Shown here one piece after another: positions 4,958-58,826 of a stretch of 59,989 nucleotides of DNA (its first letter is position 1; every line of letters begins with the position of its first letter). Source of the stretch: Bacillus sp. J37 (lineage in GTDB: Bacteria > Bacillota > Bacilli > Bacillales > Bacillaceae); NCBI RefSeq assembly GCF_000518865.1, contig NZ_JAEK01000027.1, forward strand, positions 1 to 59,989, read 5' to 3'. The translations under genes were made by a program, and so were the position numbers. The notes beneath the pieces were generated by a model. It ran no database searches, was not told the DNA's origin, and was given only the letters and a program-made list of their open reading frames with translations.

Positions 4958-6511
4958 ATGAGCGTATTAAACGTAAAAGATTTAAGTCACGGTTTCGGTG
5001 ATCGTGCAATTTTTAATAATGTGTCTTTTCGACTTTTAAAAGGAGAACACGTTGGACTAATTGGGGCAAATGGTGAGGGTAAGTCTACTTTCATGAATAT
5101 TGTTACCGGGAAGCTACAACCCGACGAGGGGAAAGTTGAGTGGTCACGAAAAGTTCGTGTCGGTTATTTAGATCAGCATGCTGTCCTTCAAAAAGGTACG
5201 ACGATGCGTGACGCTTTGAGCTCTGCTTTTCAATATCTTTTTGATGCTGAATCAGAGATCAATGAACTTTACGCAAAAATGGGTGATGAAGGTGCTGATA
5301 TCGATGCATTACTTGCAGAAGTTGGAGAGCTCCAAGAAACTCTAGATAGTAATGATTTCTATCAAATTAACTCAAAAGTTGAGGAAGTTGCTCGTGGTCT
5401 AGGATTAGATGCGGTTGGACTCGATCGGGATGTTAATGATCTTAGCGGTGGGCAACGTACGAAAGTTTTGCTAGCTAAGCTTCTACTAGAAAAGCCTGAA
5501 ATCCTATTACTAGACGAGCCAACGAACTATTTGGATGAACAGCATATCGAATGGTTGAAGCGCTATTTACAGGAATATGAGAATGCATTTATCTTGATTT
5601 CACATGATATTCCATTCTTGAACAATGTTGTTAACTTGATTTATCATATGGAAAACCAAGAATTGAATCGCTATGTTGGTGACTATGATAACTTCTTAAA
5701 AATCTATGAAATGAAGAAGCAGCAACTGGAGTCTGCTTACAAGCGTCAACAACAAGAAATTGCAGATTTAAAGGATTTCGTTGCTCGTAACAAGGCAAGT
5801 GTTGCGACTCGTAATATGGCAATGTCCCGTCAAAAGAAGCTCGACAAAATGGAAATAATTGAATTGGGGAAAGAGAAGCCAAAACCTGAATTTAATTTCA
5901 AAGAAGCTCGTACAGCTAGTCGTTGGATTTTCACGGCTGAAGATCTTGTTATTGGTTACAATGAACCACTTTCTCGCCCATTGAATTTGAAAATGGAACG
6001 CGGACAAAAAATTGCCTTCGTGGGTGCAAACGGTATTGGTAAGTCTACTCTTTTAAAAAGTATTCTTGGGTTGATTAAGCCAATTTCAGGTAAAGTGGAA
6101 CGTGGTGAACATCAATACATCGGTTACTTCGAGCAGGAAGTTAAAGAGTCCAACTACAACACTTGTATTGAAGAGATTTGGAGCGAGTTCCCAAGTATGA
6201 ATCAGGCAGAAGTCAGGGCTGCTCTTGCAAAATGCGGATTAACGACGAAACATATTGAAAGTAAAATCGAAGTTCTCTCTGGTGGCGAAAAAGCAAAAGT
6301 TAGATTGTGTAAAATTCTAAACACAGAAACGAACTTACTAATTCTAGACGAACCTACCAATCACTTGGATGTTGACGCGAAAGAAGAATTGAAACGTGCT
6401 TTAAAGGCATATCGCGGAAGTATCTTAATGGTTTCCCACGAACCTGAATTCTATCGTGAAATTGCGACCGAAGTTTGGAATTGTGAGGATTGGACGACAA
6501 AAGTGTTTTAA
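4958..6511 (+). CDS. yfmM: ABC-F family ATPase, YfmM-type
   Basis: A 517-residue soluble protein with two tandem ABC domains and no membrane segments, the hallmark of ABC-F ribosome-associated factors. First domain: Walker A GANGEGKST at 36-44, signature LSGGQ at 162-166, LLLDEPTN at 183-190. Second: GANGIGKST at 356-364, LSGGE at 440-444, LILDEPTNHLD at 461-471. Between them (about 240-320) is the charged linker that reaches the ribosomal peptidyl-transferase centre in this family. Length and N-terminus match my memory of B. subtilis YfmM (518 residues) better than YkpA, YdiF or YfmR. Members act in translation rescue; some give antibiotic resistance, which cannot be inferred here. AAGGAG precedes the ATG. 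Confidence 0.85.
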   Translation: MSVLNVKDLSHGFGDRAIFNNVSFRLLKGEHVGLIGANGEGKSTFMNIVTGKLQPDEGKVEWSRKVRVGYLDQHAVLQKGTTMRDALSSAFQYLFDAESEINELYAKMGDEGADIDALLAEVGELQETLDSNDFYQINSKVEEVARGLGLDAVGLDRDVNDLSGGQRTKVLLAKLLLEKPEILLLDEPTNYLDEQHIEWLKRYLQEYENAFILISHDIPFLNNVVNLIYHMENQELNRYVGDYDNFLKIYEMKKQQLESAYKRQQQEIADLKDFVARNKASVATRNMAMSRQKKLDKMEIIELGKEKPKPEFNFKEARTASRWIFTAEDLVIGYNEPLSRPLNLKMERGQKIAFVGANGIGKSTLLKSILGLIKPISGKVERGEHQYIGYFEQEVKESNYNTCIEEIWSEFPSMNQAEVRAALAKCGLTTKHIESKIEVLSGGEKAKVRLCKILNTETNLLILDEPTNHLDVDAKEELKRALKAYRGSILMVSHEPEFYREIATEVWNCEDWTTKVF

Positions 6512-51701: not shown

Positions 51702-53636
51702 TTAATCTTTTTGATAAAACTGACACTCATAACCATCAGCACTAAGCAACAGGCCATTTGCCCATGTTGGTATCTTAGCCATCTGTTCACAGATAGCGGA
51801 AAGTGACGTCCCCATATCTGCCTCGATGATAATTTCATCGTGTACATGAGCCACAATGGAACAATTCTTTAATGTCTGCATGGCATGACACAAGATGTCA
51901 CGACTGATTGCCTGAACAATATTCTCTACAAATTTGGGTCCATAGCTTTCGATTCTATCCCATTTTTTCGTCCCACCGACCCCTTCATAAGTAACCGACT
52001 CACCGCCAAACATATTCTCTCCCATACGAGGTTTCACATAGGCAAGCCGTCTGCCAGAAGGGAGGACAATGAAGAGCATCCCGCTTTGATAGATAAATTT
52101 AATGCCGTGTGTCTCTGTGGGAGTTTTTTGCTTAACACAAGTTTTTACTGCCCGGTCAACATCCCACCAGAGTTTTGTGATATTGGGATTGGACTGTCTC
52201 CAAGCCGTTACAAGCGGTTGTAGTTCCTCTTCTTCAATTCCCATCTCCAAAGCACCCATTGATTTTAATGCTCCAACAGATCCGCCGTAACCGAGGGCAA
52301 GTTCAGCGATTTTTCCTTTCTGACGAAGATGGCCATTCAAACCATGCTTTTCAACAGGTACACTAAACATTTGAGAAGCACTGGCACAGTAGATGTCACC
52401 ACCATTTTGGAATACTTCTATTCTCCATTTTTCGCCTGCAAGCCAGGCAATGACGCGAGCCTCAATCGCTGAAAAATCTGCAACGATGAACTTCATGCCC
52501 TCTCGAGGTATAAAAGCAGTACGAATAAGCTCTGATAGTGCCTCTGGGATAGAATCATAGAGTAAAGTAAGAGCATCAAAGTTTCCGCTTCGAACTAAAG
52601 CACGAGTCTGTTCCAAATCAGGCATATGGTTTTGTGGGAGATTTTGCAGTTGAATCAGCCTGCCAGAGAATCTTCCTGTTCTGTTGGCTCCGTAAAACTG
52701 AAACATTCCTCTTGCACGACCGTCACTACATACTGCGTTCTCCATTGCTGTGTATTTTTTCAACGATGATTTCGCAAGTTGCTGACGAAGTTCTAAAACA
52801 GTGCCTAGTGGTTCAGGTGCTGTTTTTAACATCTCAGCAACAGCTTTTTTACCTAGGGACTCTGTTTCTAGCCCATTGTCGGCAAGCCAATCTTTCATTT
52901 GTTGCACAGAGTTTGGATTCTCTAAATTGGTTATATCCTGCATTAAAGCCATCAGCTTTTCACGGGAATGCTCATCCATCTCGACAGCCTGTTTTACGAA
53001 AGTCATGTCAATGGCAATGCCGCGATCATTGATTTCCTGGTCGATATGATATTCCTCCCAAATGGTCCCAGGCATCGGAAACTTGGATAATCTCTGCTGT
53101 ATTGACATCTCAGTTTCCACATCACGAAGGTTATATGCTTTAAACCGCTCCCATTTTTCCACGTCATGTTCCGGCAGATTACGAACTCGACCGCCATTTG
53201 ATTTAGTAGGGGAGCAGGGAGTACAGAAATATTTAATAAGGTCTTTACCTTCAGTCAATTTTTGCTTTTCTAAACCTAAAACTGCACCGACCCCCTCTAG
53301 CGAAAGCGGAAGTCCCATATATGCCGACCAGATCATGGAGCATTTCCAAGATGTAGGGTCAAGATAATTTGTAAGGTTAAGCCATTTTGATAGACACACA
53401 CGCTCAAACATTGCATTAAAAGCCCACTTGGTGACGGAATTATCCATAAGTGCGTTTATAATTTCATCTGGGATTTCCTCTCCACAAGCAATGTCAACAA
53501 CTTGTACTTCGCCGCCATCCACTGAATAGCCAAATAGTAAAATTTCAAAATCATCACTCTCGGCATAACGGTAAACACCAGACTTTTGAAGATTGGCGCC
53601 ACTAAAAGTTTCAATATCAATAGAAATAGAATTCAT
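51702..53636 (-). CDS. Phage DNA polymerase, family A
   Basis: A 644-residue protein. N-terminal 3'-5' exonuclease-like domain (ISIDIETFSGANL; YNLRDVETEM), then the polymerase: FYGANRTGRFSGRLIQLQNL, motif A VADFSAIEARVIAWLAGE, motif B RQKGKIAELALGYGGSVGAL, motif C VAHVHDEIIIEAD. Replicates phage DNA together with the VapE protein. Confidence 0.95.
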   Translation of the reverse strand: MNSISIDIETFSGANLQKSGVYRYAESDDFEILLFGYSVDGGEVQVVDIACGEEIPDEIINALMDNSVTKWAFNAMFERVCLSKWLNLTNYLDPTSWKCSMIWSAYMGLPLSLEGVGAVLGLEKQKLTEGKDLIKYFCTPCSPTKSNGGRVRNLPEHDVEKWERFKAYNLRDVETEMSIQQRLSKFPMPGTIWEEYHIDQEINDRGIAIDMTFVKQAVEMDEHSREKLMALMQDITNLENPNSVQQMKDWLADNGLETESLGKKAVAEMLKTAPEPLGTVLELRQQLAKSSLKKYTAMENAVCSDGRARGMFQFYGANRTGRFSGRLIQLQNLPQNHMPDLEQTRALVRSGNFDALTLLYDSIPEALSELIRTAFIPREGMKFIVADFSAIEARVIAWLAGEKWRIEVFQNGGDIYCASASQMFSVPVEKHGLNGHLRQKGKIAELALGYGGSVGALKSMGALEMGIEEEELQPLVTAWRQSNPNITKLWWDVDRAVKTCVKQKTPTETHGIKFIYQSGMLFIVLPSGRRLAYVKPRMGENMFGGESVTYEGVGGTKKWDRIESYGPKFVENIVQAISRDILCHAMQTLKNCSIVAHVHDEIIIEADMGTSLSAICEQMAKIPTWANGLLLSADGYECQFYQKD

Positions 53637-53708
53637 GTATTACCGCCCTTTCCAATGCAAACGAGGTGGCAGAAGAACAACCTCCACCACCTCGTCTGTA
53701 TTTATTCT

Positions 53709-54257
53709 TTATGCTAGAAAATCATCATCTTCAATGGTTGTGAAATCATCAGCAGCATTGGTTCTTCCACCTAAAGGCTCTCCATCTCTTATCTTCTGAA
53801 TGTTACCAAGACCGCAAGCCACACCCTTATTGCCATTAGAGTTAAAAGCATAGAAATTTAGGGATACTCTTGCGTAACAACCGCTGTATACCTCGTTGCG
53901 ATCTAGGATTGGTCTAACTGCTTTATCTACTATTTGGGGTGGAGTCTTGCTGTTGGCATTTACAAAGTAATTCCCTTTATATGCCTCATCATCACGTTCC
54001 ACATCACCATCTCGAAGTGGCAGTTTGATAGCAGCCTTATTCGGCTTTTTACCGCCAAACTTTGCAATGCCCTCTTCAATGGCTGCATCTACGGCTGCAT
54101 TGATAGCATTGATGGTTTCCTTATCTGTTTTTGGAATCAATACGGAAACACTGTATTTTTCCGCCCCGCCATTAATAGATACTGGTTCCCAGCCATGAAA
54201 GTAGCTGAGTCGTGTGTTAACGCTTGTAACAACCTTTGTTCTGTTTTGATTATTCAT
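53709..54257 (-). CDS. DUF2815 ssDNA-binding-type protein
   Basis: A 182-residue OB-fold-type protein (VVTSVNTRLSYFHGWEPVSI, YSVSVLIPKTDKETINAINA, YSGCYARVSLNFYAFNSNGN) with acidic C-terminal tail TTIEDDDFLA. It matches the DUF2815/gp2.5-like group that precedes phage polymerase A, so probably binds single-stranded DNA. Confidence 0.85.
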   Translation of the reverse strand: MNNQNRTKVVTSVNTRLSYFHGWEPVSINGGAEKYSVSVLIPKTDKETINAINAAVDAAIEEGIAKFGGKKPNKAAIKLPLRDGDVERDDEAYKGNYFVNANSKTPPQIVDKAVRPILDRNEVYSGCYARVSLNFYAFNSNGNKGVACGLGNIQKIRDGEPLGGRTNAADDFTTIEDDDFLA

Positions 54258-54258
54258 A

Positions 54259-55398
54259 TTACGATTCCTCCGTTATCTCATTAAATTCGTTTTTTACGTT
54301 TGATATATTCATAGCTGGCCGCTTATCGGAAAGTGGAACCAGCGTTGGCTTACCTAGTGGTTTATGTATAAGACCACCGAGGATTTCTTCAAATTTCTTT
54401 TTGCCCATCAGTTTCTGCATTTCCGTTAAGGTAATAAGGCTGTGACGGTAGATATCCTTATAACCGTTTGCCTTGGCTGCTTCAGCCACAGCTTCTTCGT
54501 CTTTATATTTACGAACAGATCTGCCCTCGACTACCTTAAAACCGTACCACTCTTTACCGTGATTAACGGCTGCTTCTGTGGCATAAGCCATAATTTCATT
54601 CGCCCACTTTGTAAGGTCGGACAGTTTAGAAAGAACTTCTTCAATTTCAGAGTCCGTAAGCAGGGGTGGCAATTTAAACTCCATTTGTGCTAGTTTCAGT
54701 TTCTCTTCAGCCCTTGCACGACATTTAACAGCTGCTCGACAGAAAGTACACCATTCACCTGGAAGATAGTCACCTTCACCTTCATAGGCTTTTTTGGCCT
54801 TTGGTCTCAGTTCGTTTTCTGCCCAGTCATTTAATTCATTTACCGGCATTGTCCATGTACTGACATTCTCCCTGCGTGGCTGGAAGACAGTCATAGAAAC
54901 CTCCTCGATGTCATACAGGCTATCGTAGATTTCCAAAGCTCCAAGGGCATATAATTTCATCTGTGGGTTTCCTACTGCATCTACTAACACACCCATGCCG
55001 TACTTAAAATCGATAATATGAAGCTTTTTATCGCCAATGATGATGCAGTCACCAGTTCCGAACCCCTGTGGTACATAGCAGGAAAAATCAAGACGTTGTT
55101 CAATAAGTATTAACGGGTCGGTACAGCTTTGTTTCGCCAGTTCAAACTGCTCCATTACAAATTCAACATAGGCATCGCTGTGTTCTTCCATCTCATCGGT
55201 GTTATAAGATGAAACAGGACGCTTACTTCTCATGTGAAGTGCTTTTTTAAGTTTATGTTCACAGAGAGCATGGGCGGCTGTACCTTCAGCGGCCGCATTG
55301 GATTCGCTATTTTCAAATTCTAGTTCCAATCTTGCAGATGGAAGGCAATTAAGCCACCTATGGGACCCTGATGCGGAAAGTACTGCGTGATCACTCAT
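54259..55398 (-). CDS. DUF2800 PD-(D/E)XK nuclease
   Basis: A 379-residue protein: N-terminal SASGSHRWLNCLPSARLELE, AAAEGTAAHALCEHKL, nuclease core GTGDCIIIGDKKLHIIDFKY G, then YALGALEIYDSLYDI and a four-Cys cluster CTFCRAAVKCRARAEE (iron-sulphur type as in AddB/Cas4). Probably acts with the polymerase and ssDNA-binding gene in recombination-dependent replication. Confidence 0.85.
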   Translation of the reverse strand: MSDHAVLSASGSHRWLNCLPSARLELEFENSESNAAAEGTAAHALCEHKLKKALHMRSKRPVSSYNTDEMEEHSDAYVEFVMEQFELAKQSCTDPLILIEQRLDFSCYVPQGFGTGDCIIIGDKKLHIIDFKYGMGVLVDAVGNPQMKLYALGALEIYDSLYDIEEVSMTVFQPRRENVSTWTMPVNELNDWAENELRPKAKKAYEGEGDYLPGEWCTFCRAAVKCRARAEEKLKLAQMEFKLPPLLTDSEIEEVLSKLSDLTKWANEIMAYATEAAVNHGKEWYGFKVVEGRSVRKYKDEEAVAEAAKANGYKDIYRHSLITLTEMQKLMGKKKFEEILGGLIHKPLGKPTLVPLSDKRPAMNISNVKNEFNEITEES

Positions 55399-55714
55399 TA
55401 CCTAGTACCTCCGCATCTTTCAACATATCTGCATAATGTTTTGGGTCAACTTCGCTTAATTTAGAGCCACCGTATTTTTGGATGATTTCCCTCACTTGGG
55501 CAGTAAGGCCAACCTGACTTTTTTCAGCAAGTTTTGCTCTGACTTCCTCCAGAGTGATTTCCTTTTTCTTTGGCGCAGATTCTTTTACGGTTGTAGTCGG
55601 TTCTTTTGTTTCCACAGGTTCATTGCCGGCCATTACATCAGCAACCGCTTGTATACTGTCCGCCAAAGAACGCATATCAGAAACCACATCAAGAAGTAGT
55701 TTGATTTTGCTCAT
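55391..55714 (-). CDS. Small phage protein of unknown function
   Basis: A 107-residue protein: N-terminal helix SDMRSLADSIQAVADVM, a Thr/Pro/Lys linker, and a C-terminal helical domain LEEVRAKLAEKSQVGLTAQV REIIQKYGG. It resembles the short early proteins that precede DUF2800 in this phage type. Overlaps both neighbours. Confidence 0.65.
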   Translation of the reverse strand: MSKIKLLLDVVSDMRSLADSIQAVADVMAGNEPVETKEPTTTVKESAPKKKEITLEEVRAKLAEKSQVGLTAQVREIIQKYGGSKLSEVDPKHYADMLKDAEVLGNE

Positions 55715-55907
55715 GGTTTAATCCTCCCTCCTTAATCTCACTAATGGCGAGTTCCTGTACGGTGTCACCTGGAACAAGGATAGTCAGTTTCTGCTTATCA
55801 CCAAGTAAGAAACGGAGGAGACGCTCCCTTATGGTGACATTACGACAGGAAACAATCCCGCCAGATTGTGGAGTTTTTGAAACACTGATTTTTAAGTTGT
55901 GTTTCAT
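55689..55907 (-). CDS. Small early phage protein of unknown function
   Basis: A 72-residue protein from ATG 55907 with AAGAGGTGAAGAAC upstream. Basic beta-rich sequence (MKHNLKISVSKTPQSGGIVS, then RERLLRFLLGDKQKLTILVP). It overlaps the next gene. Confidence 0.6.
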   Translation of the reverse strand: MKHNLKISVSKTPQSGGIVSCRNVTIRERLLRFLLGDKQKLTILVPGDTVQELAISEIKEGGLNHEQNQTTS

Positions 55908-55941
55908 GTTCTTCACCTCTTTCCGAGAGCCTTTATGTGCT

Positions 55942-55996
55942 GCCCTCTACCTATTAGCCGTGGCAAGAGGGGAAAGTTGAGGATTCTGGAAAAACT
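55942..55996 (-). repeat. 45-bp motif, copy C
   Basis: Minus strand TTTTTCCAGAATCCTCAACTT, then TGCCACGGCTAATAGGTAGA; here it forms the last codons and stop of the sigma-like gene. Confidence 0.7.
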
Positions 55997-56487
55997 TTTT
56001 TGAAATTCTTCTTAGCTGTATCTAAACGATGTGAAATGGCACTTTTACTAACACCCTCACGCTCTGCATACTCTGTTACAGAAACACCATCTAGGAATAT
56101 AGCAATCAATAACTCTGCTTGTTTTTCCTTGAGGGTCTTGCGGATAATTTCACAGAGGTATTCATACTCTACTTGTTTCTCTCGAATCACTTCATCGGTG
56201 TTATCAGGGAAATAGTCCATATGGTCCGTAGCATCTTCGGATTCATCATCCTTGCGGAATGGTTTCTTTGGCATCCCTCTGTGCCTATCAAATTTATGCC
56301 AGTTATTGTACTCGGGTTTGTTGAAACGCTCGTCCATAATCTCCTGTGGGGAACGGCGTGTTACAGTTTCCTTGTCCTCAACAGAAGATAGCCTGTCCTC
56401 GTAATCTGCATCAATCATTAAAGTGAAGTCCTCGTCTGGTACCTCTAGGTAGATAGATTTGTTTTCGTGTTGAATTCTAATTTTCAT
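55954..56487 (-). CDS. Sigma-70-like phage transcription factor
   Basis: A 177-residue protein from ATG 56487 (MKIRIQHENKSIYLEVPDED); GGAAAGG precedes it. C-terminal region 4-like HTH (KQAELLIAIFLDGVSVTEYA EREGVSKSAISHRLDTAKKN). The N-terminus is not a canonical region 2, so this is a partial sigma or regulator. Its leader (56488-56670) has an unusual fold that could control it. Confidence 0.75.
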   Translation of the reverse strand: MKIRIQHENKSIYLEVPDEDFTLMIDADYEDRLSSVEDKETVTRRSPQEIMDERFNKPEYNNWHKFDRHRGMPKKPFRKDDESEDATDHMDYFPDNTDEVIREKQVEYEYLCEIIRKTLKEKQAELLIAIFLDGVSVTEYAEREGVSKSAISHRLDTAKKNFKKVFPESSTFPSCHG

Positions 56488-56670
56488 TTTGCATCCTTTC
56501 CGCCGGACTGCATTGGCGGCAAAGGATACAAAAATAGGTCTGTGCCTCGAAGTACACAGACCCTTTGTCCTGAAAATGAGCGCAACAAGGTAAGGTACTT
56601 CTATTGCAACGCATAACAATCCTAAACGGACTGAAACGTTGCAATATGTATCCTTTGCCCTTATTGCAAA
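56488..56670 (-). promoter_or_regulatory. Structured leader with alternative pairings over the ribosome binding site
   Basis: Going along the RNA: segment 1 GGCAAAGGATACA (56659-56647), a TTGCAACG/CGTTGCAA stem, a terminator hairpin (56562-56530), segment 2 TGTATCCTTTGCC (56530-56518) plus GCC, and segment 3 GGCGGAAAGGAT (56504-56493), which carries the ribosome binding site of the sigma-like gene. Segment 2 is exactly complementary to segment 1 over 13 bases and also pairs with segment 3 (ATCCTTT with AAAGGAT, CCGCC with GGCGG). The two pairings exclude each other. Confidence 0.65.
56530..56562 (-). terminator. Attenuator-type terminator inside the leader
   Basis: GGTCTGTG-tacttcgagg-CACAGACC then TATTTTTG; lies about 45 bases upstream of the sigma-like start. 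Confidence 0.75.
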
Positions 56671-56717
56671 TCAGGCATTTGATATTTTTTTGTAGACGAG
56701 GAATGGTCTAATTCTTG

Positions 56718-56822
56718 CTAACTACGAAGGACCTTTCCTTCATCTATCATTATTGTAGGTGAGAATTGGACAGCCTTGGCGGACACCTCATGCCCGTTAA
56801 TTTCAGGCTCAAAATGACGCAT
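56718..56822 (-). CDS. Possible 34-residue peptide
   Basis: ATG 56822 opens a frame MRHFEPEINGHEVSAKAV then QFSPTIMIDEGKVLRS and stop. The composition looks protein-like, but no strong ribosome binding site precedes it (AGGTG is 14 bases away). It sits at the head of the early operon. It could instead be part of an RNA leader. Confidence 0.35.
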   Translation of the reverse strand: MRHFEPEINGHEVSAKAVQFSPTIMIDEGKVLRS

Positions 56823-56849
56823 TTCTCAACAAAAACACCTAAAAACAAC

Positions 56850-56894
56850 AAAAAAAAGCCATTCACAAACCCTTAAAAGGATTCATGCATGGCT
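56850..56894 (-). terminator. Second terminator after the ImmA gene
   Basis: AGCCAT pairs with ATGGCT (longer stem with mismatches), followed by TTTTTTTTG. Confidence 0.75.
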
Positions 56895-56910
56895 TACTTA
56901 TTTAATAACT

Positions 56911-56933
56911 AAAAAACGGACATCCTGTGTCCG
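56911..56933 (-). terminator. Terminator of the ImmA/IrrE gene
   Basis: CGGACA-caggA-TGTCCG then TTTTTTAG. Confidence 0.85.
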
Positions 56934-56957
56934 CTTTTTCAAAAATATTATTGAATT

Positions 56958-58826
56958 TTATAATGGCTCTGCGCCATGTTCCTGTAAAAACGTTCTAATC
57001 TCATCCATCGATTTTGCATATAGATGAGTCAATGCAAAGTTATACCAAATATGACTATTGTTATTGAAGTTCAATGAAAATGGTGAGTTGCGAATTATAT
57101 GACTGCTAATATTTGGCGGTAGATGAAGTCCAAGGCAGATTAATACTATGGAATTAATCGATCCCGGTTCCTCACCATTAACGATTCGTCTTATGGTACG
57201 CTCGTTGACCAATATTTTCTCTGCTAATTCTTTATAAGTTACTTTTTTCCACTCACGTACTATTTTGAGAGAGCTGGTATAACTATTTGGCAATTCATTA
57301 TAGATTCGCATTTCTTCAGCTATTGTTTCGGCTAGTAATTGGGCCTTCTTTTCTGGAGCCGCATACTCAAAACCATTACAATATTTTATATCAAAATCAA
57401 TATTCGATGTCTTATCACGATTGAGGAAACATTCAGTATAGTATCTTTCCTTACACCCGGATTTGACTGATAACTCGAAAACCAAGCAGCACTCTTCCAT
57501 ATGGGTTCGTGCGTAGTCTGTAAGTACCGTTTGTCCAAATATATCCTGTGTTATATATTTTGGATGGTTTAAAACAAAGTGGGAATCTACATATATATAA
57601 CTTCCGTCCCTAACTAAAGCGGCCATTTCTGGATTGGTTATGCTTTGGATGGCAGCATCCTCTGCGCCTATAGAAAAGGTCTGATTTCTTTCAAGCGCAC
57701 CCTTCTTAAATCTGTGAGGCTTGACGTAGCGACCATCTATGTAAGTAAAAGTTCCGATTGCTTCCTCATATCCAGCATCAATCATTCGAATTTTAGCTGC
57801 TGTCCGAGATACGCTGAAGAACGTTGCTAAGGCGTCAATAACTGGCTCCATTACATCTATAAGTTCAGATGTTCCCAGTTCTGAACGGAATTGCTTAATA
57901 AATTTGAACGCTTGGGTTTTAAACATGGCAAGGGGCATTTGTATCTTTGGAGCGAGGGCATTCGCCTGCCATTCCATCCAGTCAGTTGCATCTCTGGTAT
58001 TGTCTTTTATACCTCCGACTACTTGACACTTGATTCGTGTGGCACTGCTGTTATATAACCGCTCCAATTCAAATGCTTTTCTATGTTGATCCCAATGAAC
58101 ACACTCATGTACAATAGTATTATTGACTGATCCTAGGTTACGAAGAAAGTAAGCTTTTGGGTCCACAATTATTGTACGAGCATTTACACGGGTTTGTACC
58201 ATTTCATCGCTGTCTTCATCATAAAACTCTGAATCACAGTCGTGAAAGTATATCTGCCCAAAAACAGAGAAATCCTTTGTAATCTCTCGCATTTCTACTG
58301 TAAGGCCCATTTTTTCTGCTAACACTTGCGGCTCAACTGCCATTGGAGTTTTTAATGCTTCAGGGTAATGTCTTCTAAGGAAGTCTGTAGCAACAGATTC
58401 TAGTTGTTCCTTATGAATGATAGGAACAAGGGAGTCCGACATAGGTTTTGGCTGCTTATTTTTGCTAGTATACTCAGTTATACTGGAGATTGCAAAATCA
58501 TCCAAATTGTAATTTAAATCTCCTGAGCATTCCAGCATAAACCATTGCCGGCAATTTTCTGATTCATCATAGTGATAATCTGACTCTCGGACTTCAAATT
58601 CAGCTTCAATAGCAACATCAAATTCTATTTTCATGTCCGGTAAGTCATTAACTGACACAAACTTAACTTCTACATCTGACAATTCTATGCCGCCAATGTT
58701 TTGAACTCTGTATAACCGTAAGTCTAGGTTGTCGTAATTATCTGAGATGTAACTTTGTACGGTAGCAAACATCTCATTATAGAATCTTTCTGCCACATAA
58801 TCTTTAAATGAACGATTACCCGCCAA
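56958..58826 (-). CDS. Large ImmA/IrrE-type metallopeptidase with HTH
   Basis: A 622-residue protein, far longer than the usual 130-200 residue ImmA. N-terminal beta-rich domain (1-130), then an ImmA/IrrE core with zinc motif HECVH at 240-244 in NTIVHECVHWDQHR and WQANALAPKIQMPLAMF downstream (third ligand region), a middle domain, and a C-terminal XRE-like HTH (about 545-585, EWKKVTYKELAEKILVNERT IRRIV). In ICEBs1-type systems ImmA cleaves the repressor on induction. Here protease and DNA binding are fused, so it may also be autoregulated. Confidence 0.85.
   Translation of the reverse strand: MAGNRSFKDYVAERFYNEMFATVQSYISDNYDNLDLRLYRVQNIGGIELSDVEVKFVSVNDLPDMKIEFDVAIEAEFEVRESDYHYDESENCRQWFMLECSGDLNYNLDDFAISSITEYTSKNKQPKPMSDSLVPIIHKEQLESVATDFLRRHYPEALKTPMAVEPQVLAEKMGLTVEMREITKDFSVFGQIYFHDCDSEFYDEDSDEMVQTRVNARTIIVDPKAYFLRNLGSVNNTIVHECVHWDQHRKAFELERLYNSSATRIKCQVVGGIKDNTRDATDWMEWQANALAPKIQMPLAMFKTQAFKFIKQFRSELGTSELIDVMEPVIDALATFFSVSRTAAKIRMIDAGYEEAIGTFTYIDGRYVKPHRFKKGALERNQTFSIGAEDAAIQSITNPEMAALVRDGSYIYVDSHFVLNHPKYITQDIFGQTVLTDYARTHMEECCLVFELSVKSGCKERYYTECFLNRDKTSNIDFDIKYCNGFEYAAPEKKAQLLAETIAEEMRIYNELPNSYTSSLKIVREWKKVTYKELAEKILVNERTIRRIVNGEEPGSINSIVLICLGLHLPPNISSHIIRNSPFSLNFNNNSHIWYNFALTHLYAKSMDEIRTFLQEHGAEPL

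Follow-up and report, generated by a model that had tools for sequence, protein, structure and literature searches.

A phage early-operon leader in Bacillus sp. J37 with mutually exclusive pairings that may control a sigma-like regulator gene

The leader of a sigma-like regulator gene in Bacillus sp. J37 is probably a cis-acting two-state RNA of a phage early operon, controlling this first gene at two checkpoints. It was studied in a window of 59,989 nucleotides (NCBI RefSeq assembly GCF_000518865.1, contig NZ_JAEK01000027.1, positions 1 to 59,989), in which the whole leader and the downstream gene are encoded on the minus strand. Comparative evidence indicates that the strands of helices P2, P2ext, P3, P4, P5, P6 and P7 match each other specifically in each leader and that two helix sets, termed OFF and ON, use the same nucleotides. 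The leader is read here as an attenuator plus ribosome binding site (RBS) switch of the early operon, whose exclusive pairings may cover or uncover the regulator gene's start site. Its parts and the genes behind it are as follows.

56752..56757, minus strand: candidate -10 box TACAAT of an early promoter, with no convincing -35 and not listed by the promoter scan
56693..56746, minus strand: P0, a 5' hairpin (TAGATGAAGGA...TCCTCGTCTA), missing from some homologues
56657..56676, minus strand: P1, a short hairpin GCC...GGC whose 3' strand is the start of arm5
56664..56669, minus strand: L1, the self-complementary core TTGCAA of the P1 loop
56647..56659, minus strand: arm5, able to pair with arm3 (P6, ON) or, at 56648-56655, with J3 (P2ext, OFF)
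56604..56644, minus strand: P2, a variable hairpin TTGCAACG...CGTTGCAA (z -14.2, 0/20000 shuffles)
56592..56601, minus strand: P4a/J3, GAAGUACCUU, able to pair with the P5 loop side (P4, ON) or arm5 (P2ext, OFF)
56582..56590, minus strand: PK1, CCUUGUUGC, able to pair with L1 (P3, rod base)
56536..56563, minus strand: P5, a terminator-like hairpin whose loop side, 56549-56555, is P4b
56518..56530, minus strand: arm3, the middle segment, able to pair with arm5 (P6) or the RBS strand (P7)
56491..56504, minus strand: R, the RBS strand GGCGGAAAGGATGC, with the Shine-Dalgarno sequence AAAGGA at 56494-56499
55954..56487, minus strand: sigma-like early regulator of 177 aa (PHROG 11138) with a sigma-70 region 4-like HTH at its end
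51702..55916, minus strand: further genes on the same strand, for phrog_7234, phrog_408, a DUF2800 exonuclease-like protein, an ssDNA-binding protein and DNA polymerase A

The competing segments that a first-pass annotation had picked out are borne out by the sequence. Positions 56647-56659 (GGCAAAGGATACA) are the exact reverse complement of 56518-56530 (TGTATCCTTTGCC) over 13 bases, and the latter segment, arm3, can alternatively pair, leaving one bulge, with 56493-56504 (GGCGGAAAGGAT). This RBS strand contains AAAGGA, 6 nt 5' of the ATG at 56487. The other elements named there are likewise present, namely a terminator-like hairpin at 56563-56536 followed by ATTTTTGTAT, the outer stem TTGCAACG...CGTTGCAA of the hairpin at 56644-56604, and three copies of TTGCAA within 56488-56676. 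The longest exact inverted repeat in the leader is 13 bases, a length reached by 0/2000 dinucleotide shuffles (10/2000 reach 11), and the folding energy of -86.7 kcal/mol compares with -48.0 +/- 4.25 for shuffles (z -9.1), 0/200 of which fold as well. The interval originally given to the leader, 56488-56670, lies inside the element but falls short of its true 5' start farther upstream, with hairpin P1 occupying 56676-56657. If transcription starts near 56745, as guessed from the TACAAT box, the leader would be ~255-260 nt long and that interval would be its 3' 70%. Three conserved pairings come in addition to those first listed: P3 (56667-56659 with 56590-56582), P2ext (56655-56648 with 56598-56592) and P4 (56601-56595 with 56555-56549), with GUAC of P4a/J3 used in both P4 and P2ext.

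The phrog_7234 and phrog_408 genes are two small genes right after the regulator, and from their order and strand we infer that the downstream genes are the rest of the early operon. The proteins encoded behind other leaders differ in their N-terminal parts, and 18/20 of those tested match Pfam sigma-70 region 4, phrog_1740 (sigma factor) or phrog_11138. Among the first ten, nine have a Pfam sigma-region-4 match (E <=0.1) and all ten match phrog_1740. Among the second ten, five have the Pfam match (L093, L152, L157, L162 and L088), L057 matches phrog_1740 and L066 and L112 match phrog_11138; the protein behind L171 gives no match. The tenth of this second group lies behind L100, a broken leader that precedes an S-adenosylmethionine synthetase-like gene.

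Related leaders are widely distributed. Blastn found parts of the leader in Oscillospiraceae phages, Erysipelothrix phage phi1605, other gut phages and a Peptoclostridium plasmid, and among 150 related genomes one further genome, G045, carries it; a second genome, G038, gave a match that is no leader. With the sigma-like protein as query 38 viral contigs were obtained, 25 of them with a leader at a profile cut of 1e-9. The 13 failing this cut comprise four with another leader and nine divergent types, the divergent loci being partly handled by eye. Motif scans of viral contigs gave 47 and 42 contigs, of which 47/47 and 41/42 pass the same cut, and a motif scan of species genomes gave at least 118 stretches, with 91 of the 118 listed passing E 1e-9. 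The other 27 listed are divergent or short leaders (e.g. L154, L159, L161, L165, L168, L199, L210) or chance motif matches, examples of the latter being L150, L156, L172, L175 and L180. Elsewhere in the collection, neither L003 nor the E. faecium plasmid match H7 is an intact leader, the matches at L095 and L096 seem to be due to chance, and L104 is a fragment at best. One short contig, L159, carries two different leaders (950-813 and 90-1, minus strand); the loop of one is not a palindrome, and the other is truncated by the contig end.

Named hosts among the matches listed include Clostridium, Bacillus, Veillonella, Peptoniphilus, Enterococcus, Gardnerella and Atopobium. Actinobacteria carry the leader too, at L173, from position 5084 (Gardnerella swidsinskii), and L212 (Atopobium deltae); by eye, the sigma-like gene of L173 is shortened (132 aa) and adjoined by insertion-sequence-like ORFs. 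A covariance model was built from 52/73 leaders, kept after removing eight odd rows and then rows of >=90% identity. It matches 11/398 genomes of the phylum and 19/189 of one order (both with strict filters), 2/80 of the family, and 2/13, 2/35 and 1/71 in other smaller groups. These counts each include the window's own genome or the group's centre genome, and groups of >40 genomes were searched with stricter filters.

The collected set comprises 124 distinct related leaders from phages, viral contigs and Firmicutes genomes, of which 45 were set aside as near-identical. From the remaining 79, set A2 keeps 73, leaving out L100, L119, L157, L163, L220 and L247. L100, L104 and L119 had been left out before an early partner-swap test with p values, and six of 43 rows, including the weak matches L286 and L287, were left out of set A5.

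Specific pairing was assessed with a partner-swap test, in which the pairing of a segment with its own partner is compared with that to partners from other leaders in 20000 shuffles, a design that leaves some relatedness among leaders. The main set held 36 representatives of <80% identity, with subsets of 24 type-A and 20 type-C leaders; a pooled test with 75 representatives adds divergent whole-genome leaders, with unpaired duplex energies capped at 0. Among the 36 representatives P2, L1 x PK1, P4, P5, P6 and P7 are each matched by 0/20000 shuffles (z -5 to -14). Both competing helices that the first-pass annotation had proposed to examine for covariation thus pass. P6 reaches 0/20000 also within type A and within type C, as does P7 when the full arms are used. 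With shortened arms P7 gives 4483/20000 in type C alone, because the test segments then cut off half the helix. In 36/36 representatives the same arm3 nucleotides serve P6 and P7 (>=4 shared; mean 8.5 nt). The mutually exclusive pairings said to be able to expose or hide the RBS are therefore supported by covariation of P6 and P7, and the leader contains two exclusive, covarying helices that share a segment.

The rod helices give a more graded result. P2ext scores 205/20000 among the 36 representatives and 6790/20000 within type A, and becomes strong (0/20000) once divergent whole-genome leaders are added. L1 x PK1 scores 23/20000 within type C and is not significant within type A (2208/20000). 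Both failures within type A are attributed to strands that hardly vary there. In the pooled set P2ext (74 usable), P4 (67), P5 (67) and L1 x PK1 (74) each reach 0/20000. Controls are mostly flat, not perfectly so. Eight control combinations among the 36 representatives run from 998 (P1a x J3) and 1169 (L1 x arm3) up to 19507 of 20000, and three of the four pooled controls exceed 10000, the fourth being arm5b x PK1 at 284 of 20000. Low values were also obtained for L1 x P5a in the A5-only set (655 of 20000) and, in earlier tests, for arm5 x PK1 (p 0.012) and P2a x PK1 (p 0.025). P1a x tail (CCUGA/UCAGG, 7319/20000) is uninformative as it is invariant in the fetched set.

A de novo APC-corrected covariation scan, to which no helix was given, gives its two highest ranks to P4 pairs and the next to a P5 pair; most of its other top pairs are not helix pairs, and many are columns marking sequence types. 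In column counts, 96.1% of P4 cells are paired, with changes on both sides at 5/7 pairs. Shifting the partners by 1 to 3 columns lowers the share of paired cells from 76.8% to 39-53% in the ON set and from 75.3% to 45-50% in the OFF set. One of five ON-set measures, further pair types, is not above shuffles (103/500 as high), nor are two of five for the OFF set (82 and 372/500 as high), which concern further pair types and double-change pairs. By eye, P0 also shows compensatory changes (TAGACGG/CCGTCTA, AGATGAG/CTCATCT, AGACAAG/CTTGTCT) and is missing in L158, L006 and L050.

Taken in transcript order, the segments arm5, P4a, P4b (in the P5 loop), arm3 and R would form the pairing chain P4b-P4a-arm5-arm3-R, in which each inner segment can pair with either neighbour. 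Since each has two possible partners, P2ext with P7 and P4 with P6 are complete, exclusive pairings of one chain. In the proposed OFF state P4a would pair with arm5 as the base of a long rod, P3-P2ext-P2, and P5 would form before the U tract and end transcription. In transcripts that escape, arm3 would pair with R and hide the RBS. In the ON state P4a would pair with P4b on the P5 loop side, releasing arm5 for the long-range helix P6 with arm3 and leaving R open. By pairing logic, P2ext and P7 leave P5 free and the RBS hidden; P4 and P6 engage the P5 loop and leave the RBS free. The model supposes that P5 terminates transcription and P4 weakens that termination. It further supposes that the two states pass into one another inside the cell, their balance being set by some factor that acts on the 5' hairpin or on the rod base.

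Folding energies calculated without pseudoknots are -88.2 kcal/mol for the OFF fold and -75.2 kcal/mol with P6 forced, which suggests OFF as the default state. The true gap is probably smaller, because P3 and P4 could add to the P6 state. The Shine-Dalgarno sequence is at least half paired in the local fold of 66 of the 72 leaders in which it was found. The overlap of P4 with the P5 stem is small, judged by eye a single base in the window and about 3 in type C leaders. The two helices may therefore form together in a pseudoknot, and P4 is not necessarily an antiterminator. An alternative reading is a static RNA, in which P3, P4 and P6 belong to one pseudoknotted fold that serves as a protein landing pad, without real switching, and P7 is a mild translation damper only. 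From their positions P3 with P6, and P4 with P5, would be topologically compatible as pseudoknots. However, specific pairing is also seen for P2ext and P7, which share nucleotides with P6 and P4; both helix sets thus seem to be kept by selection, and we regard a static fold as unlikely.

The first checkpoint of the two-state model would be transcriptional. Judged from sequence alone, an intrinsic terminator lies between promoter and start codon: at least five T occur in the 8 nt 3' of P5 in 68/73 leaders, against a background of 14% of all positions. P5 is weak in some leaders (e.g. L002, L093, L114, L145). A T run after the rod, instead or additionally, is present in 9/73, five of which have a weak P5. 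By eye, a shorter subtype comprising L154 (648-768), L161 (2192-2074) and L226 (4869-4984) is without P4-P7 and consists of the rod followed by TTTTTT; in L161 and L226 it precedes a gene like the window's phrog_408 gene. These rod-borne T runs and the short subtype may mean that leaders conserve attenuation but shift the site at which it happens. In L020, L022, L033 and L039 a close relative of the sigma-like gene stands behind an unrelated leader, which looks as if attenuation were achieved there in another way. By eye, a hairpin in these unrelated leaders precedes seven or eight T in L022, L033 and L039 and five T in L020.

A structured RNA with a terminator-like hairpin inside it could also act on RNA polymerase so that the terminators of the early operon are passed, in the manner of HK022 put or EAR. 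HK022 put and Bacillus EAR RNAs act on polymerase, and they resemble the present leader as structured RNAs near the start of a long transcript. The strong conservation of structure and the position behind a probable early promoter of a long gene row would suit such processive antitermination. It would, however, leave the conserved RBS occlusion and the usual place before a sigma-like gene unexplained, and no Rfam family reached threshold in a library that may or may not contain put and EAR models. The conserved occlusion and the lack of an Rfam match also set the leader apart from these RNAs, for which, to our knowledge, RBS hiding is not known. Processive antitermination is accordingly considered the most improbable of the explanations weighed here.

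The factor proposed to set the balance between OFF and ON would act on the 5' hairpin or the rod base. By eye, the P1 stem changes between GCC/GGC, GTCC/GGAC, CGTCT/AGACG and GCCUU with AAGGC, GAGGC or GGGGC, pairing being kept through G-U partners. Most loci were fetched with a motif of P1 and its loop, and the constancy of P1/L1 sequence is therefore partly built in. In loci found in other ways the L1 core is UUGCAA, UACGUA, UGCGCA, UGGCCA, AUGCAU or GUCGAC, beside UAGCUA. A palindrome of at least 6 nt is present in 25/26 distinct 16-mers, the exception being one L159 copy. The fetch motif covers eight of these 16-mers; among the remaining 18, 17 are palindromic. The weak matches L286 and L287 were left out of this count, and L287 shows no palindrome. 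Among 15 chosen L1 variants 14 are palindromic, against 18% in shuffles (maximum 11/15), and five other leader segments contain a palindrome in 0/56 to 8/49 distinct sequences. The loop thus stays self-complementary while its sequence changes, which hints at RNA-RNA kissing. A comparable six-base self-complementary hairpin loop forms the palindromic kissing-loop dimer of the HIV-1 DIS (PMC7357161); the present case is a bacterial 5' leader known from its sequence.

The same palindrome could be a dyad operator in the DNA, bound by a repressor and merely overlapping the RNA element. The 20-bp dyad GCC-N4-palindrome-N4-GGC lies downstream of the promoter, and the window has four matches at <=2 mismatches vs 1.56 expected (4/100 shuffles have as many). 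Yet the sole perfect copy in the window is P1 itself, and the other operator-like dyads, CGGACA-N5-TGTCCG, are located upstream. The P1 stems moreover keep pairing via wobble partners, and the core wanders over seven hexamers. With the palindrome kept across changing L1 cores and G-U pairing kept in the stem, the pattern seems more in keeping with RNA-RNA kissing than with a site for a DNA-binding protein, and an operator at P1 is judged rather unlikely.

Kissing would allow the leader to count its own copies. L1 x L1 contacts between transcripts would compete with L1 x PK1, opening the rod base in favour of P4 and P6 and hence the ON state, and terminated leader fragments could themselves be the signal. 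Synthesis of the sigma-like regulator would then require simultaneous transcription of several phage genomes. Such an RNA-only sensor of phage copy number is a speculative, on balance unlikely refinement of the two-state leader; the self-complementary loop makes phage RNA-RNA sensing directly testable.

The view that the leader belongs to no described class fits the Rfam and literature searches. With Rfam 15 there were 0 matches above the gathering threshold in the window or in 16 homologous loci, and a lax search of 55380-57000 gave eight matches, all far below threshold. In the excerpts of literature covered on DUF2800 motifs, phage and sigma-factor leaders, candidate structured RNAs and kissing loops the leader was not found described; it is possibly an unnamed candidate in the tables of PMC8040213. 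The suggestion of a riboswitch or a fold-changing RNA holds in its broader half, given the competing conserved helices, and its strict metabolite-binding sense is without support, there being no Rfam aptamer match. In that strict sense P1, P3 and P2ext would be the aptamer for a small host molecule. The layout, a 5' structured part with terminator and RBS control, and a size near 160-190 nt would be in keeping with this. Against it stand the missing aptamer match, an L1 core that changes among palindromes and the wide host range, and a metabolite riboswitch is considered improbable.

The two-state leader shares features with several known systems. Riboswitch and T-box leaders of Gram-positive bacteria use mutually exclusive terminator or RBS pairings, and their attenuating or RBS-hiding logic, with alternative terminator and RBS/anti-RBS pairings, is like that proposed here. 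In contrast to these, the present leader matches no known aptamer or T-box element, would combine both checkpoints in one leader and is found next to genes of phages and mobile elements. Closest in function is the cIII mRNA leader of phage lambda, which is opened by RNase III binding, so that translation of an early regulator depends on leader structure (PMC2777011). Common to both is a phage early regulator under leader-structure control, whereas the gene and the phages differ. We know of no terminator checkpoint or five-segment chain in the lambda cIII leader. If the two-state reading is right, many prophages and mobile elements of Firmicutes carry at their early operons an undescribed, widespread class of regulatory RNA. 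Such an RNA would give them, behind the repressor, a control point later than initiation, and would serve as a compact, strongly covarying model for strand exchange.

Upstream of the leader, TACAAT occurs ~80 nt 5' of P1 in 15/35 window-like upstream regions, and among these 35 window-like leaders many have the optional hairpin P0 and several have CGGACA-N5-TGTCCG operator-like dyads (all by eye). The two best copies of this dyad in the window, at 56917-56933 (0 mismatch) and 56780-56796 (1 mismatch), both lie upstream of the leader; at <=3 mismatches the window contains 10 matches vs 9.4, which is chance level. Directly upstream of the leader, at 56958-58826 on the minus strand, lies a gene for a 622-aa phrog_4031 protein with a weak C-terminal HTH match, a possible immunity regulator of the element.
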